From Nocardioides humi (GTDB lineage Bacteria > Actinomycetota > Actinomycetes > Propionibacteriales > Nocardioidaceae), in NCBI RefSeq assembly GCF_006494775.1, contig NZ_CP041146.1, forward strand, positions 3,782,001 to 3,846,000: 64,000 nt of DNA, read 5' to 3'. The notes below the pieces were generated by a model. That model was not told where the DNA came from. It made no database searches and saw nothing but the letters and a program-made list of their open reading frames with translations. How positions within the stretch are numbered: the stretch's first letter is position 1; every line of letters starts with the position of its first letter. This document shows positions 31,058 to 36,141 of the stretch, one piece after another. The position numbers and the translations under genes are program-made.

Positions 31058-32605
31058 ATGCCTCTCCGCACCAGCAAGCCCGCCACCCACCTCAACCGGC
31101 GGACCTTCCTCGGCGCCAGCCTGGGCGCCGGGCTGATCCTGGCGCTCGAGGCCTGCGGCGGCACCTCGACGGGCACCAGCGGCGGCGCCGGCGGCACCCT
31201 CAAGTGGGCCTGGCAGCTGCCGACGACCTGGGACCCGGTCACCTCCTCCGCCGGCTCGGACGTGCAGATGCTCGCGCTGGCCTACGACCCCATCACGGCG
31301 CTCGACCAGGAGGGCAACGCGATCCCGTGGCTCGCCGAGTCGTGGACGTACGACGCGTCGGGCACCCAGGTCACCTTCACCCTCCGTGCGGGCCTGAAGT
31401 TCAGCGACGGCAGCCCGATCGACGCCACCGCGGTCGCGAAGTCGATCGAGCGCGGCCGCAGCGAGCAGGGCTCGCTCATCGCCCCGCAGATGAAGACGAT
31501 CGAGAAGGTCAGCGCGTCCGGCGACCGTGACGTCGTCCTCGAGCTGAGCGAGGTCGACTACCAGTACCCGCTGCTCTTCGCCGGCAAGACCGGCATGGTC
31601 GTCAACCCCGCGGTCTTCGAGAAGGACGCCTCGTCGCTGGCCACCCAGCCCGCCGGGTCCGGGCCCTTCGAGGTCACGAAGTACGTCCAGAACGACCACG
31701 CCTCGATGAAGAAGAACCCGAACTTCTTCGCCGCCGACGAGATCAAGGTCTCCGCCTTCGACCTCTACCCGCAGGCCGACCCGGCGACCGTCGTGGCCGC
31801 CGTCCAGTCGGGGCAGTACAACGTCGCGCGGCTCTTCGGCGCGCAGGTCCAGCAGGCCGAGGACGCCGGGCTGGAGGTGCAGATCCTCGACTCGATGTTC
31901 GTCAGCTGCCTCGACGTGCACACCGGGATGAAGCCGTTCGACGACCCCGCCGTCGTGGAGGCGCTCAAGTTCGCCATCGACCGGGAGAAGATCAAGGAGG
32001 TCGCCAACTTCGGCATCGGCGACGTGAACTACCAGCCCTTCCCGCCGGGGTACGTCGGCTACGACCCCGACCTGGGCGACATCTACGCCTACGACCCCGA
32101 CAAGTCCCGCCAGCTGCTCGCCGATGCCGGCTACACCGAGCCGATCCCGGCCGTCTTCACCAGCTCCGGCTTCGGCCCGGCCGCCGTGGAGCTGATCCAG
32201 GCGCAGCTGAAGGAGGTCGGGATCGAGGCGAAGATCGACACGATCCCGCAGACCCAGCACACCCAGCAGGTCTACATCGAGCGCTCCAAGGCCCTGACGT
32301 ACGACGGCTTCGCCGGCCGCGAGTCGCCGGTGCAGGCCTTCCAGGTGCTCTTCGGCGCCGAGGGGCTGATGAACCCCAACCGGACCACCGACCCCGAGCT
32401 CGAGGCGCAGCTGAAGAAGGTCAAGGAGACGCCGACCGACGACCCGGAGTACCCCGCCCTCCTCCAGGAGGCGACCCGGATCGCGGTCACCACGTTCCCC
32501 AACGTCTTCCTCTACCTCACGCCGTCGATCGTCGCGCGCAAGGGCGTCTCGGCGCTGCCGGACTCCCCGAGCCTGCGGCGCTTCGAGGGGGTGACCACGT
32601 CGTGA
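31058..32605 (+). CDS. ABC transporter substrate-binding lipoprotein (SBP_bac_5, Dpp/Opp type)
   Basis: 515-aa extracytoplasmic binding protein. The signal has a twin-arginine motif (NRRTFLGAS) and a lipobox-like LEAC, so it is probably exported by Tat and lipid-anchored, although Glu at -2 of the lipobox is unusual. The body is typical of family 5: [34 protein letters not shown] and FAIDREKI. Family members bind peptides, nickel, opines or other small molecules. The stop overlaps the permease start by 4 bases. Confidence 0.92.
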
Positions 32606-33651
32606 CCCTGGTCGCCTCCGCGCCGGCCCCGGCGGCGCCCGCCGTCGGCCGCGCCGGCGCGGCGGCCCGCCGTACCGTGCCGGCGCTGCGGTCGCTCGCC
32701 GGCGTGGTGGCCGTGACCGTGACCGTGCTCCTCCTCGCCTCGGTCGTCACCTTCGCGCTCGGTGCGCTCAGCGACAGCAACCCGGCCGCCGCGGCGCTGG
32801 GGGAGACCGCCACCGCGGAGGACATCGCGCGGCTCGACCACGAGTTCGGGCTGGACCGCCCGCTGCCCGAGCAGTACCTCAGCTGGGTCGGCAACGCCGT
32901 CACCGGCGACCTCGGCCGCTCCTGGTTCACGACCATCCCGGTGGCCGACAGCATCCGGCAGGCGCTGCCCGTCGACCTCTCGATCGCGGCCCTCGCGCTC
33001 GTGCTGGCGCTCCTGATCGGCGGCGGCGCCGGGATCGGCGCGGCGCTCAGCAACGGCGGCGTGTTCGACCGGGCGGTGACGCTGGTCTGCTCCCTGCTGG
33101 CCACGCTGCCGCCGTTCGTCATCGGCATGGCGCTCATCGTCGTGTTCGCCGTGAAGCTCCAGCTGCTGCCGGCCGGCGGGTACGTGCCGATCCAGGCGGA
33201 CCCGCTGGAGTGGCTGCGCTTCGCCATCCTCCCGGCGCTGGCGCTGAGCCTCGACGTGGCGGCCTCGATCGCGCGCCAGCTGCGGACCTCGCTGGTCGGC
33301 CAGCTGCGCGAGAACTACGCCGTGGGGGCGGAGATGCGCGGCTTCGGTCGGCGCCGGGTGCTCTTCGGGCACGTGCTCCGCAACGCCGCGGGACCGACGC
33401 TCGCGGTCATCGGCCTGGCCATCCCGCTGATCATCGGCGGCGCGGTGATCACCGAGAAGCTGTTCGGCCTGCCGGGCGTGGCCCAGCTGTCGCTGCAGGC
33501 GGCCGAGAAGGGCGACGTGCCCGTCGTCCTCGGCACCCTGCTGGTCACCGCCGTGGTCGTCGTGATCGCGAGTCTCGTGGTCAACCTGCTGCAGGTGCTG
33601 CTCAACCCGGTCGCCCGGCGCGGCAGCGGAGCGACGGGGGCGGCGCGATGA
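32602..33651 (+). CDS. dppB: ABC transporter permease, DppB type
   Basis: 349-aa inner permease with about six membrane helices and the EAA-loop region EMRGFGRRRVLFGHVLRN. GTG start overlapping the binding protein stop by 4 bases. The stop TGA at 33649-33651 is inside an original ATGA overlap with the next permease gene. That overlap is now split by an IS110-family element, so the second permease gene is found 1.6 kb further on. Confidence 0.9.
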   Translation: MTLVASAPAPAAPAVGRAGAAARRTVPALRSLAGVVAVTVTVLLLASVVTFALGALSDSNPAAAALGETATAEDIARLDHEFGLDRPLPEQYLSWVGNAVTGDLGRSWFTTIPVADSIRQALPVDLSIAALALVLALLIGGGAGIGAALSNGGVFDRAVTLVCSLLATLPPFVIGMALIVVFAVKLQLLPAGGYVPIQADPLEWLRFAILPALALSLDVAASIARQLRTSLVGQLRENYAVGAEMRGFGRRRVLFGHVLRNAAGPTLAVIGLAIPLIIGGAVITEKLFGLPGVAQLSLQAAEKGDVPVVLGTLLVTAVVVVIASLVVNLLQVLLNPVARRGSGATGAAR

Positions 33652-33662
33652 GAAGCCCTATG

Positions 33663-34948
33663 TCAAGCCGCTTTGTTCTGTTGGGTGATGACGCGTTGGA
33701 GTGCGCGGTGGGTTTCGGGGTTGTAGGCGAGGTTGTCTTGCCAGCAGTGCCAGATGATGTGGAGCCAGGCTCGGGCGAGGATGCGTACGGCGTGGGCGTG
33801 GTCGTGGCCTCGTGCCCTGGCGCGGTTGTAGTAGTCGGCGGCCCAGGGGTTGGCGTGTCTGCTGTCGGCGGCGAAGTCGACCACGGCGTCGCGGAGTTGT
33901 TTGTCGCAGGACCAGCGGAACCCGACGGCTCGGTGTTTGCCGGACTGGCGGGTCGAGGGTGCGGCGCCGGCCAGGCAGGTCAGCGATTCGGGGTGGGGAA
34001 TCTGGCTCGGCAGTCGCCGATCTCGGCCAGGAGGCGTGCGGCGCGGACGCGTCCGGCTTTGGGGAGGCTGGTGAAGATGTGCGCGTCGGTGTGTGCGTCG
34101 AGCTGCCGGTCGATCTGGGTCGAGAGGATCTTGATCTGCTCGACCAGAGTCAGCAGCAGCGTCACGTAGCTCGCGGTGATCGCAGCCTGGGTGGTGGCGT
34201 GGATGCCGGTGGCGCCCCTGGGCGCGTCCAGGAGCCGGGCGTGCAGCACGGCAGGGTCGGTGCGTCCGGAGTAGCCCTGTTTGGTCAGCCAGCCGCCGAG
34301 GCGTTGGGGGGTGAGCCAGTCGGCGCGGTCTTGGGTGTCGAACCGGGTCAGGAACGTCAAGGAGATCTCGGAGTCGATGTCGCGGAAGAGGCCGATGGCG
34401 CCTGGGAAGACGTTGCGCAGGTGGGCACGGAGCTGGTTGGCGACCGCGACGCGGTGTTTGACGAGGTCTTTGCGGGCACGGCAGGCGCGTCGCAGCGCGA
34501 CCGTGTCGTCGCGGTCGGGGATCAGTGGGCGCAGTCGGGTCCGGTCGGTGCGCAGGGTGTCGGCCAGGACGTAGGCGTCGAAACGGTCGTCCTTGTTGCC
34601 GGCCGATCCGTAGCGGCCGCGCAGGTTCTTGACCTGGTTCGGGGAGATCACCACCACGCTCAGCCCGGCGGCCAGCAGTGTGTCGATGACGGGTCCGTCG
34701 GGTCGTTCGATCGCGACCTCGTCGACGCCGTGACGGCGCAGGAAGCCGACCAGTTCACGCAGGCCGCTTGCGGTGTGCTCGACCGTCGTGGTGGCGACCT
34801 TGCGGCCGCGTCCGTTGACGATGCAGGCGGCGTGGTCGTCACGGGCCCAGTCGATGCCCGCGGTCACGTCGTTGGGCGCGGTCTCGGGCAGGGTCACAGA
34901 ACGTTGGCTACTCATGGATTCGGTCGGGGTTTTGCTGGCAGACTTCAC
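33663..34948 (-). CDS. IS110 family transposase (apparent frameshift)
   Basis: RuvC-like N-terminal DEDD domain: Asp33 in GIDWARDD, Glu81 in AIERPDG, Asp121 and Asp124 in NKDDRFDAYVLAD. The C-terminal Tnp domain begins IFTSLPKAGRVRAARLLAEIGD. The frame stops after FPTPNR at 33980. The expected continuation (SLTCLAGAAPSTRQSGKHR... to NPETHRALQRVITQQNKAA) is in the next frame, and one extra G in the GGGG run at 33990-33993 restores a 428-aa protein. The context CCCCACCCCGA is the same as in the LysR break. The GTG start at 34948 has GAGGAGG 5 bases before it. Confidence 0.85.
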
Positions 34949-34999
34949 GTCAGCCTCCTCGCTGCTCCAATCAGTGGGGAGGCACCCATTTCTTCGGGT

Positions 35000-35240
35000 G
35001 TCGCGATATCTCACGGTGCCGGGACGTGTCTGCCGGTTCGCTCACTGATCGGCGCTCGCGACCACGCTGATGCTCAGCAGCGGTCTTGGCGCACAGCCCT
35101 ATCGACGGTCCACACGTCCCGGGCAACCACCAGATCCTGCAGATCTCATCGTGGACGTCCTTGGCGTCAAGCGAGCAGGGCAGTGACCTGGCGGCACCCG
35201 GGGTGCATCACCGCCTCATCTGGAAGCGATGACGTCAGGA
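35000..35240 (-). ncRNA. Candidate IS110 bridge RNA
   Basis: Read on the minus strand. An 11-base stem (35112-35122 with 35020-35030) encloses a donor-loop layout. On its 5' side is ATAGGGCT (35102-35095), identical to the right end of the element (33661-33654). On its 3' side is CAGTGAG (35047-35041), complementary to the core plus left end of the element (35255-35249). Between them is an inner stem (GCGC/GCGC, GACC/GGTC, GCTGA-TGC-TCAGC at 35066-35078). Nearer the 5' end CGATGAG (35151-35145) is complementary to core plus target flank (33652-33646), as a right target guide should be. A 5' hairpin is at 35190-35215. RNA ends are not determined. Confidence 0.7.
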
Positions 35241-35250
35241 AGGTAGTCCA

Positions 35251-36141
35251 GTGAGCACCCTCCGTGCGCTGTGGCGCATCCCCAGCGCCCGGCTCGCCCT
35301 GATCGTGCTGGCCGGCGTGGCGCTCCTCGCGGTCTTCGGCGGCACGCTCGCCCCGCACGACCCGCTGAAGCAGTACACCGACGACGTGCTGCAGGGCCCG
35401 AGCGCGCAGCACCTGCTCGGCACCGACTACGTCGGCCGCGACGTGCTGAGCCGGCTGATGAGCGGCACCCGCCTGTCCGTGCTCGGCGCGGTCGAGGCGG
35501 TGCTGATCGGCGGGCTGCTCGGCATCCCGTCCGGCCTCGCGTCCGCCTGGCTGGGCCCGCGGCTGGAGTGGATCACGCTGCGGGTCAGCGACACCCTGGT
35601 GATCCTTCCGTTCACGGTCTTCGCCATCGCGGTCGCCGGCACGCTCGGCAACGGCCTGCAGCAGGCGATGATCGCGATCGGCATCCTGATCAGCCCGATC
35701 TTCTACCGCGTCACCCGGGCCGCCGCGCTCGGGCTGCGCAAGGTGCAGTACGTCGAGGCCGCCGAGCTGATGGGAGCCACCGAGTGGTGGACCCTGCGCC
35801 GGCACATCTGGAACAAGGTGCTGCCGAATGTCGCCGTCACCGCCGCGCACGCGACCGGCGCCGCCCTGCTCGTGGTGGCCTCGCTCGCCTTCCTCGGCCT
35901 CGGCGTCACGCCGCCCGCACCCACCTGGGGCGGCATGCTCTCCTCCGACCTCGGCTACCTCGCGCAGCAGCCGTGGGCGCCGATCTTCCCCGCCCTGCTG
36001 ATGATGGCGACCGTCGGCTCGCTCAACCTCCTCGCCGACGCCATCCGCGACGCCACCGGCGCGAGCGCGGCGCCGCGCCGTCGTACCCGGCCCACCCCGT
36101 CCGCCTCCCGAGAGGAGCAGCGCGATGCCGTCGCGTCCTGA
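35251..36141 (+). CDS. dppC: ABC transporter permease, DppC type
   Basis: 296-aa permease with about six helices and the EAA region EAAELMGATEWWTLRRHIWNKVLPN. The start codon is now GTG. Its first base comes from the insertion sequence end, which also supplies AGGAAGG 7 bases upstream; the undisturbed gene would have begun ATGAGCACC. All residues after the first codon appear intact, so the permease can still be made. It overlaps the next ATPase gene by 17 bases. Confidence 0.9.
   Translation: MSTLRALWRIPSARLALIVLAGVALLAVFGGTLAPHDPLKQYTDDVLQGPSAQHLLGTDYVGRDVLSRLMSGTRLSVLGAVEAVLIGGLLGIPSGLASAWLGPRLEWITLRVSDTLVILPFTVFAIAVAGTLGNGLQQAMIAIGILISPIFYRVTRAAALGLRKVQYVEAAELMGATEWWTLRRHIWNKVLPNVAVTAAHATGAALLVVASLAFLGLGVTPPAPTWGGMLSSDLGYLAQQPWAPIFPALLMMATVGSLNLLADAIRDATGASAAPRRRTRPTPSASREEQRDAVAS

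Follow-up and report, generated by a model that had tools for sequence, protein, structure and literature searches.

The locus described here raises the question of what the guide RNA of a mobile element reads in its host, and what becomes of a gene that is entered at its first codon. Within the window, by which we mean the whole 64,000-nucleotide stretch of Nocardioides humi DNA that was analysed, an IS110-group element (33653..35253, minus strand; 1603 bp including one core copy, as judged by comparison of copies) lies between two host genes of the plus strand, a dppB-like permease (32602..33651; PF00528 and PF19300) and a dppC-like permease (35251..36141; PF00528, BPD_transp_1, and PF12911, OppC_N from residue 4), names that were given by protein family rather than taken from the annotation. 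The site is the ATGA overlap between these genes: the dppB-like reading frame ends at 33651, and the former dppC start ATG, here called the entry codon (33648..33650, plus strand), overlaps the dppB stop TGA at 33649-33651.

The element and its copies

The copy in the window (L002) is one of four in the 6.22-Mb genome, which occupy four sites and differ solely by one base in length, two of the four being 1604 bp; four further relatives in the same genome share 73-74% nucleotide identity with the element. The core dinucleotide reads CT on the minus strand at both junctions, at 33651..33652 on the right-end (RE) side and at 35254..35255 on the left-end (LE) side. The core is taken to be CT only, because the junctions of one relative, L035 (CTCA at one end and CTGG at the other), share just these two bases; CT is also the core dinucleotide of IS621. 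A boundary guess of 33652-35238, drawn from GATGA repeats, was dropped since the copies share sequence as far as CTCACTGG.

The transposase (recombinase) gene (33663..34948, minus strand) is frameshifted and carries an internal stop in the window copy but is intact in copies L003 and L004; in L003 both DEDD_Tnp_IS110 (PF01548) and Transposase_20 (PF02371) score above cut-off. Its inferred GTG start is preceded by AGGAGG at 34959-34954. Sequence searches with one protein (E 0.001) or with a profile of 10 sequences (E 0.1) retrieved no PDB chain. The same one-base transposase frameshift occurs in the window copy and in L001, two of the four copies, and reflects either a defective copy that was mobilised in trans or a common sequencing artefact in a run of C.

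A predicted bridge RNA with covarying stems

The main text of Durrant et al. (2024; PMC11208160) places the bridge RNA of IS621 and IS110 elements in the left end, and describes a 5' hairpin, target and donor loops and a core dinucleotide. The original prediction for the present locus, an IS110 bridge RNA with guides to both ends and the target, was borne out by the recombinase domains, the left-end location, the covarying stems and the matching guides, and the left end of the window copy is well supported as the predicted bridge RNA of an IS110-group element. The RNA would extend over 35017..35233 (minus strand), its approximate ends being drawn from folds and compensatory changes. In order it comprises a 5' hairpin (35206..35234, minus strand; z -4.26; helices 1 and 2 of the consensus structure), a target-binding stem-loop with left and right guides (35127..35194, minus strand; stem 35194-35185 with 35136-35127; helix 4) and a donor-binding stem-loop, again with left and right guides (35019..35122, minus strand; helix 6). 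The 11-base stem said to enclose the donor guides is a perfect 11-bp helix, CCGGGACGTGT (35122-35112) with ACACGTCCCGG (35029-35019), that shows compensatory changes in relatives.

Comparison with close relatives had been suggested as a check, and the stems do show the compensatory changes expected of a conserved fold. In an alignment of 37 left ends of relatives, picked from 53, and with three short helices left out of the scoring, 96.5% of cells form standard pairs in the consensus structure and 28 of its 43 pairs display compensatory changes. The target stem (helix 4) is paired in 98.9% of cells, with double changes in 8 of 12 pairs, and the donor stem (helix 6) in 96.1%, with double changes in 6 of 7. 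None of 500 shuffles reached the consensus figures for pairing or compensatory changes, and when the structure is shifted by 1-3 columns the share of paired cells falls to 32-42%, a control that is flattered because the structure was derived from that same alignment. Taken as a whole, the left end is more stably folded than its shuffles (z -3.67); folded alone, the pieces holding the target loop (z -1.33) and the donor loop (z -0.14) are unexceptional, and thus it is covariation that supports these two loops. No Rfam family matched the 64,000-nucleotide window above its gathering score.

Guides match the element ends and the target

Every string named in the original prediction was found on the minus strand where it had been placed. 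The left donor guide, ATAGGGCT (35095..35102, minus strand), is identical to the right end of the element at 33661-33654, as had been claimed, and the right donor guide, CAGTGAG (35041..35047, minus strand), is indeed complementary to core plus left end (CTCACTG, 35255-35249). Of 52 distinct elements, 48 repeat a 6-mer of their right end within the donor region, and 49 carry there the complement of the 7 nt with which their left end begins. The assertion that such matches in the expected order are unlikely by chance also held, as the three guides never appeared in order in 20,000 dinucleotide-shuffled versions of the 305-base left end, the single-guide frequencies being 0.08% for ATAGGGCT, 5.9% for CAGTGAG and 10.9% for the proposed target guide, CGATGAG.

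That CGATGAG (35145..35151, minus strand) is the right target guide is supported by its covariation with the right target across relatives. In 54 insertions the guide was taken by sequence context, blind to the target; at the five positions outside the core it pairs fully with the target in 45 and, with wobble allowed, in 49. The same test over the 37 distinct bridge RNAs gave 29 fully paired, or 33 with wobble, and permuted guide-target pairings reached the observed level in 0 of 10,000 trials. Relatives with changed guides sit at correspondingly changed targets, examples of guide and target being CGATGAG/CTCATCG (the window), GCATGAG/CTCATGC, GCGTGAG/CTCACGC, GACTGAG/CTCAGTC and CTCTGAG/CTCAGAG. 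At the four sites of the near-identical copies the element always abuts CTCATCG on the right, and the left flanks differ. The outcome that had been named as a refutation, an unchanged CGATGAG next to altered flanks, was thus looked for, and the result favoured the prediction. In a larger set of 51 distinct RNAs, which includes some guides located by matching to the target, five carry a mismatch (L026, L037, L066, L095 and L135).

The left target guide required reassignment. GGGTGC in the 5' hairpin, which had been put forward as a weaker match to the other flank, is present at 35199-35194, but it arises in 13.5% of shuffles and was ruled out because relatives place the guide at 35180-35170. 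Thus, the left guides of L033, L034, L035 and L039 share 8-10 contiguous nucleotides, core included, with their left targets, and the corresponding segment of the window copy, within the target loop, is CCCTGCTCGCT (35170..35180, minus strand). Over the clade, left guides agree with left targets at a mean of 4.37 of 8 positions, against 3.63 when permuted (0 of 10,000 permutations as high). In the window copy, however, the contiguous match to the left target is confined to GCT, and a common left guide, CCTGCTCGCT, is carried by 22 of 38 distinct elements although their left targets vary, which suggests that the left guide is little used in most of the clade. L050, which carries this common guide, also has 8 contiguous identical nucleotides.

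Start codons as the address

Among the 63 transposases in the tree described below, 48 are accompanied by a right guide ending in ATGAG or GTGAG (hereafter start-type) and 14 by another guide. The target of a start-type guide is CTCAT or CTCAC, which on the opposite strand is ATG-AG or GTG-AG; judged by sequence, most right target guides in the clade read a start codon. The pairing of guide and target had been foreseen; what had gone unseen is that this target is a start codon, and that the element has an exit ribosome-binding site and an antisense frame without stops, both described below. Read outward, the left end supplies a GTG in the exact register of the lost start, or an ATG in L040, L128 and the L100 group. 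In the window this exit start codon (GTG, 35251..35253, plus strand) is in register with dppC, whose reading frame becomes 35251-36141. Across distinct sites with enough flank, the frame of the supplied start is coding-like at 42 of 58 start-type sites and at 1 of 14 other-guide sites. The two alternative frames are coding-like at 0 of the 58 start-type sites, a trivial result for one of them, whose first codon is TGA.

Both ends were available for 56 start-type insertions, of which 12 had too little flank and were left out. Of the remaining 44, 33 lie at gene starts, judged via codon composition rather than annotation, compared with 4 of 30 background GCTCATCG sites (Fisher p 2.5e-7). These 33 insertions stem from 23 distinct bridge RNAs; none is internal to a longer frame, and at 28 the TGA within the entry ATGA or GTGA closes a coding frame that comes from upstream, the stop-start overlap of an operon. 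The other 11 are at no recognisable gene start. The background comprises the first 30 GCTCATCG sites on one strand in the first 551 kb of the window genome, and represents one version of the target; 11 are coding in frame and 4 are gene starts. The bare 8-mer occurs 771 times in the genome, roughly six-fold more than its reversed control (127). It should be emphasized that survival of insertions, and not targeting, may lie behind the excess at starts, the 8-nucleotide address alone giving about 4 in 30. Among the host genes entered are that of succinate-CoA ligase alpha at L128, where positions 1-289 of the sucD profile align with residues 1-289 counted from the supplied codon, and that of argininosuccinate lyase at L044, where the argH profile aligns from residue 12.

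An exit ribosome-binding site

Ahead of the supplied start the left end reads AGGAAGGTAGTCCA-GTG in the window and AAGGATGGTGCACCA-GTG in many relatives. In the window the exit Shine-Dalgarno sequence, AGGAAGG (35237..35243, plus strand), stands 7 nt ahead of the supplied start and has a predicted dG of -7.8 kcal/mol with the anti-Shine-Dalgarno sequence. With a cut-off of -6 kcal/mol or lower, picked after the first set had been seen, such a duplex is predicted for 40 of the 43 distinct left ends of start-type elements and for 0 of 13 others; the difference in strength has a Mann-Whitney p of 1.5e-7, uncorrected for relatedness.

The same place could have served another function. Across the RE-LE junction the elements carry a promoter-like TTGACA-18 nt-TACCTT or CACCAT, recognised by its sequence; in the window the -35-like TTGACA (33661..33666, minus strand) is in the right end, where it would face the left end in a circle, and the -10-like TACCTT (35240..35245, minus strand) is in the left end, 18 nt away across the junction. 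Such a junction promoter would exist in the circle only, and a promoter and terminator scan of 33500-35500 found none on either strand. The -10-like box overlaps the place of the exit Shine-Dalgarno sequence on the opposite strand. L033, L035, L041 and L047, however, none of which has a start-type guide, retain TTGACA-18-CACCAT without adjacent Shine-Dalgarno bases, and therefore the promoter does not account for the exit site.

An open frame across the element

The frame that runs from the host start into the right end, antisense to the transposase and the bridge RNA, has its terminal stop as its sole stop in 35 of 44 distinct start-type elements, and in 0 of 15 elements with other guides. 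This stop is the TGA of GTGA or ATGA, overlapping the supplied start. Divided by three, the length of the insertion leaves a remainder of 2 (2 mod 3) in 37 of these 44 start-type elements, against 3 of the 15 others, and the elements that pass span 23 different lengths. Nine start-type elements fail: L001, L038, L109, L135 and L136, which we judge to be frameshifted copies from alignment length, frame or the length of a sister copy; L042, which has a shortened transposase; and L039, L125 and L131. In the window, the antisense frame from the host ATG (33648..34169, plus strand) stops after 173 codons through the frameshift, yet the exit Shine-Dalgarno sequence and the GTG for dppC are kept. In the intact copies the frame is as long as the element, with a single stop at codon 535 of 536 in L003.

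Frames opposed to the codons of a gene are often open anyway in GC-rich genomes. The first 190 nt of the left end, which is non-coding, are stop-free in the entry frame in 36 of 39 start-type elements, and in the other two frames in 5 and 5. Shuffles would give 15.3 of 39, and the corresponding counts for the three frames of 13 other-guide left ends are 4, 3 and 7; as 39% would be open by chance and the other elements are open in some frame, this test alone carries moderate weight. Differences between 31 start-type left ends, sorted by codon position of the antisense frame, are 0.235, 0.251 and 0.210, and 32,688 of 88,180 aligned residue pairs (37%) are out of phase. The absence of codon periodicity and the out-of-phase pairs suggest that it is the frame rather than a peptide that is kept in the left end, and a conserved antisense peptide there was dropped as a candidate; the periodicity test covers the left end, where RNA structure may mask a weak signal. 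The idea that the antisense frame is fused in frame to the downstream gene was likewise abandoned, as the length is 2 mod 3 and the TGA of GTGA ends the frame.

Two elements from Mycobacterium metagenome bins, L033 and L035, have non-start guides, left guides that match the target over 8 nt (core included), a length of 0 mod 3 and no antisense stops, and are possibly in-frame, read-through insertions.

Guide type and the other traits across the tree

A quick tree built from the 63 transposases (LG+G4) calls for 7 changes of guide type, of which well-supported branches force at least 5. Over 5 independent pairs, the mean number in which a trait follows guide type is 3.9 for the Shine-Dalgarno sequence and 4.0 for the open frame, and neither ever goes the opposite way. 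A sign test gives p 0.0625-0.5, values below 0.05 being out of reach with so few pairs, and the tree is blind to gain versus loss. In the sister pairs L035/L040 and L041/L049 guide type and traits differ jointly.

Elements found after the hypothesis had been formed give a similar picture. Of six start-type elements, five have a Shine-Dalgarno dG of -6.4 or lower, in a tally that leaves out L124, L127, L129, L130 and L132, and also L100 and L119, which were partly known earlier. L121, L122 (with a second copy, L133), L123 and L128 combine the Shine-Dalgarno sequence, the length of 2 mod 3 and the single terminal stop, the frame downstream of L121 being of 13 codons only. The length rule is broken in L125 (1 mod 3) and in its copies L135 and L136, all of which retain the Shine-Dalgarno sequence. 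L131, the most distant, on a long branch, has a GTGAG guide and none of the traits. Two new elements with other guides, L126 and L134, also have none. Among the elements known before, L039 combines a start-type guide with a weak Shine-Dalgarno sequence, an interrupted frame and a site away from a gene start, and L037 has a weak Shine-Dalgarno sequence and a guide mismatch.

A proposed route into operons and its alternatives

We propose, with a probability of about three in four, that the bridge RNA addresses host start codons, mostly those at ATGA or GTGA operon junctions, and that the element has been shaped to be transparent to translation. The sequences themselves show a right guide that reads ATGAG or GTGAG and, where two genes overlap as the dppB- and dppC-like genes do, an upstream gene that keeps its stop. 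In intact copies the host start codon opens a frame that crosses the element without a stop, opposite both the transposase gene and the bridge RNA, and that ends in a TGA overlapping the element's own GTG or ATG; this codon has a Shine-Dalgarno sequence ahead and stands at the place of the former host start. The element therefore takes the position of an extra coupled cistron, in the order gene A, ATGA, open frame, GTGA, gene B. Ribosomes coming from the host start would cover the transcript, limiting Rho-dependent polarity, and would restart gene B at the exit site; with cover and restart combined, insertion would cost the host little, and we infer that it is non-polar. With a new start codon and ribosome-binding site at its left end, the element appears able to enter an operon without silencing the gene.

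A different purpose for an open antisense frame has been suggested before. IS900 belongs to the IS110 family, and the title of a 1997 paper by Doran reportedly proposes that its start-codon targeting serves hed expression. If so, start codons would be sought as a way of having a useful antisense protein made by the host, and the exit site would be secondary. In the account of IS900 from Mycobacterium avium subsp. paratuberculosis given in PMC8141618, an element of 1,451 bp has the target CATGNNNNNNTCTCCTT and an antisense ORF, 'hed', that spans it without a ribosome-binding site or start codon of its own. Full-length antisense frames are present in the elements studied here too, and a start-codon target with an element-long antisense ORF is seen in most start-type relatives and in L003 and L004. 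This explanation nevertheless appears unlikely for the present clade, as the left end lacks codon periodicity and has many residue pairs out of phase, and the production of an antisense protein predicts no exit Shine-Dalgarno sequence and start codon in register. It is less probable still that these are ordinary bridge-RNA elements in which the Shine-Dalgarno sequence is a by-product of the junction -10 box and the open frame a consequence of high-GC codon usage. The TACCTT or CACCAT box does adjoin the Shine-Dalgarno sequence on the other strand, and openness opposite the codons of the transposase would be unsurprising in a GC-rich gene. Four elements, however, have the box without the Shine-Dalgarno sequence, the non-coding left end is open in the entry frame beyond the other two frames and shuffles, and 2 mod 3 holds over 23 different lengths. 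Least credible of all is that host transcription, by producing RNA antisense to the transposase and the bridge RNA, quiets the element and that translation is incidental. The transposase and bridge RNA do lie opposite the host transcript at start-type gene-start insertions, but such a brake leaves the missing stops, the length rule and the exit Shine-Dalgarno sequence unexplained.

The proposal of translational transparency can be set against known systems. As in the main text on IS621 (PMC11208160), the elements have a PF01548/PF02371 recombinase, a left-end RNA, the same guide orientation and order, and a junction promoter. In contrast with that text, which cites REP elements as an example target, the targets here are gene starts, and the left target guide is near-constant and weakly used in most of the clade; a word search of the main text found neither 'start codon' nor 'ribosome'. 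IS900, as described in PMC8141618, resembles the present elements in that CATGNNNNNNTCTCCTT reads as a start codon and Shine-Dalgarno sequence on the other strand and 1,451 is 2 mod 3; the exit Shine-Dalgarno sequence with its start codon and the bridge-RNA guide are differences from that description, on which alone the comparison is based. The IS1111/IS110 seekRNA elements of PMC11187229 likewise combine a DEDD transposase with a guide RNA from a non-coding region, in an account whose available text does not mention reading frames or translation. In the IS1111 group, unlike here, the guide RNA is at the opposite end of the element (PMC11208160). For IS900, both the targeting of start codons and an antisense frame as long as the element have already been reported (PMC8141618). 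In the mostly open-access literature consulted, part of it as partial text, no exit Shine-Dalgarno sequence or start codon is described for IS110 elements, and neither that exit site nor the length rule nor the link to bridge-RNA guides was found in print.

These observations would give a mobile element a route into operons, even at the starts of argH and sucD, without obvious gene loss, and they make the old question of the IS900 'hed' frame testable. The exit ribosome-binding site and open frame are mostly missing from elements with non-start guides, which suggests that guides evolve with the rest of the element. For users of bridge recombinases, the elements offer a natural guided insertion that appears to rebuild the translation of its target gene.

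A second address and distant relatives

A broader reading, which we favour less firmly, is that the clade reads gene punctuation: a start class would rebuild the ribosome-binding site and start of the next gene, a convergent-stop class would keep both stops, and the host-facing strand would be selected for the passage of ribosomes rather than for protein. The habit would be old and widespread, extending to Streptomyces and in part to Variovorax at 37-44% protein identity, and would explain the IS900 target and 'hed'.

The convergent-stop class is represented by group 2 (L066, L068, L078, L079, L083, L086 and L098), seven insertions of four distinct elements that lie between convergent frames. 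Their transposases are about 53% identical, their guides end in GCCTGAG or GGCTGAG, and the site is TGA nn CTCA. The forward frame is open for 186-457 codons (GC3 0.91-0.99) up to a TGA that starts 4-7 nt ahead of the core. The reverse TGA is at the core, with 73-217 open codons (GC3 0.88-0.97), lengths that are cut by the end of the locus in 6 of 7. Both convergent stops survive the insertion. L065 and L095 show one side of this pattern only, and L043 and L060, examined alike, show no convergent-stop pattern.

Annotated relatives on plasmids were represented by 12 of 16 matches, with L137, L138, L139, L173, L178 and L141 left out of the tests. Three elements found on Streptomyces plasmids, L175-L177, are relatives at 37-39% identity whose left ends read CTCATTAGAGGACC or CTCATTAGGAGACC. 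Their length is 2 mod 3, their antisense frame has no stop before a terminal TAA or TGA around the ATG, and their Shine-Dalgarno dG is -8.5 to -8.8; in 3 of 3 the NCBI-annotated host gene starts on the supplied ATG. In Variovorax, an annotated gene starts on the ATG supplied by L174 behind GGAGG, and the length of 1 mod 3 breaks the rule; L142 follows the length and frame rule, with a downstream frame of 13 codons and no annotated gene. L140, from a mycobacterial plasmid, has a GT core and an ATGAC guide, TGCATGAC, and conforms in length and frame, with a weak Shine-Dalgarno sequence and a downstream frame of 21 codons.

Several minor features of individual elements were also noted. At the right end of L031, TTGACACAGGGC occurs twice in tandem ahead of the core, and in L136 sequence of the left flank reappears in the right flank, as far as a second CTCACGG, an arrangement that resembles a duplication of the target. 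In L141 and L178, elements of Mesorhizobium plasmids whose boundaries are unsure, an annotated GntR regulator starts at an ATG near the left end, which in L141 is preceded by TTTGGAGATC; L178 is annotated likewise.
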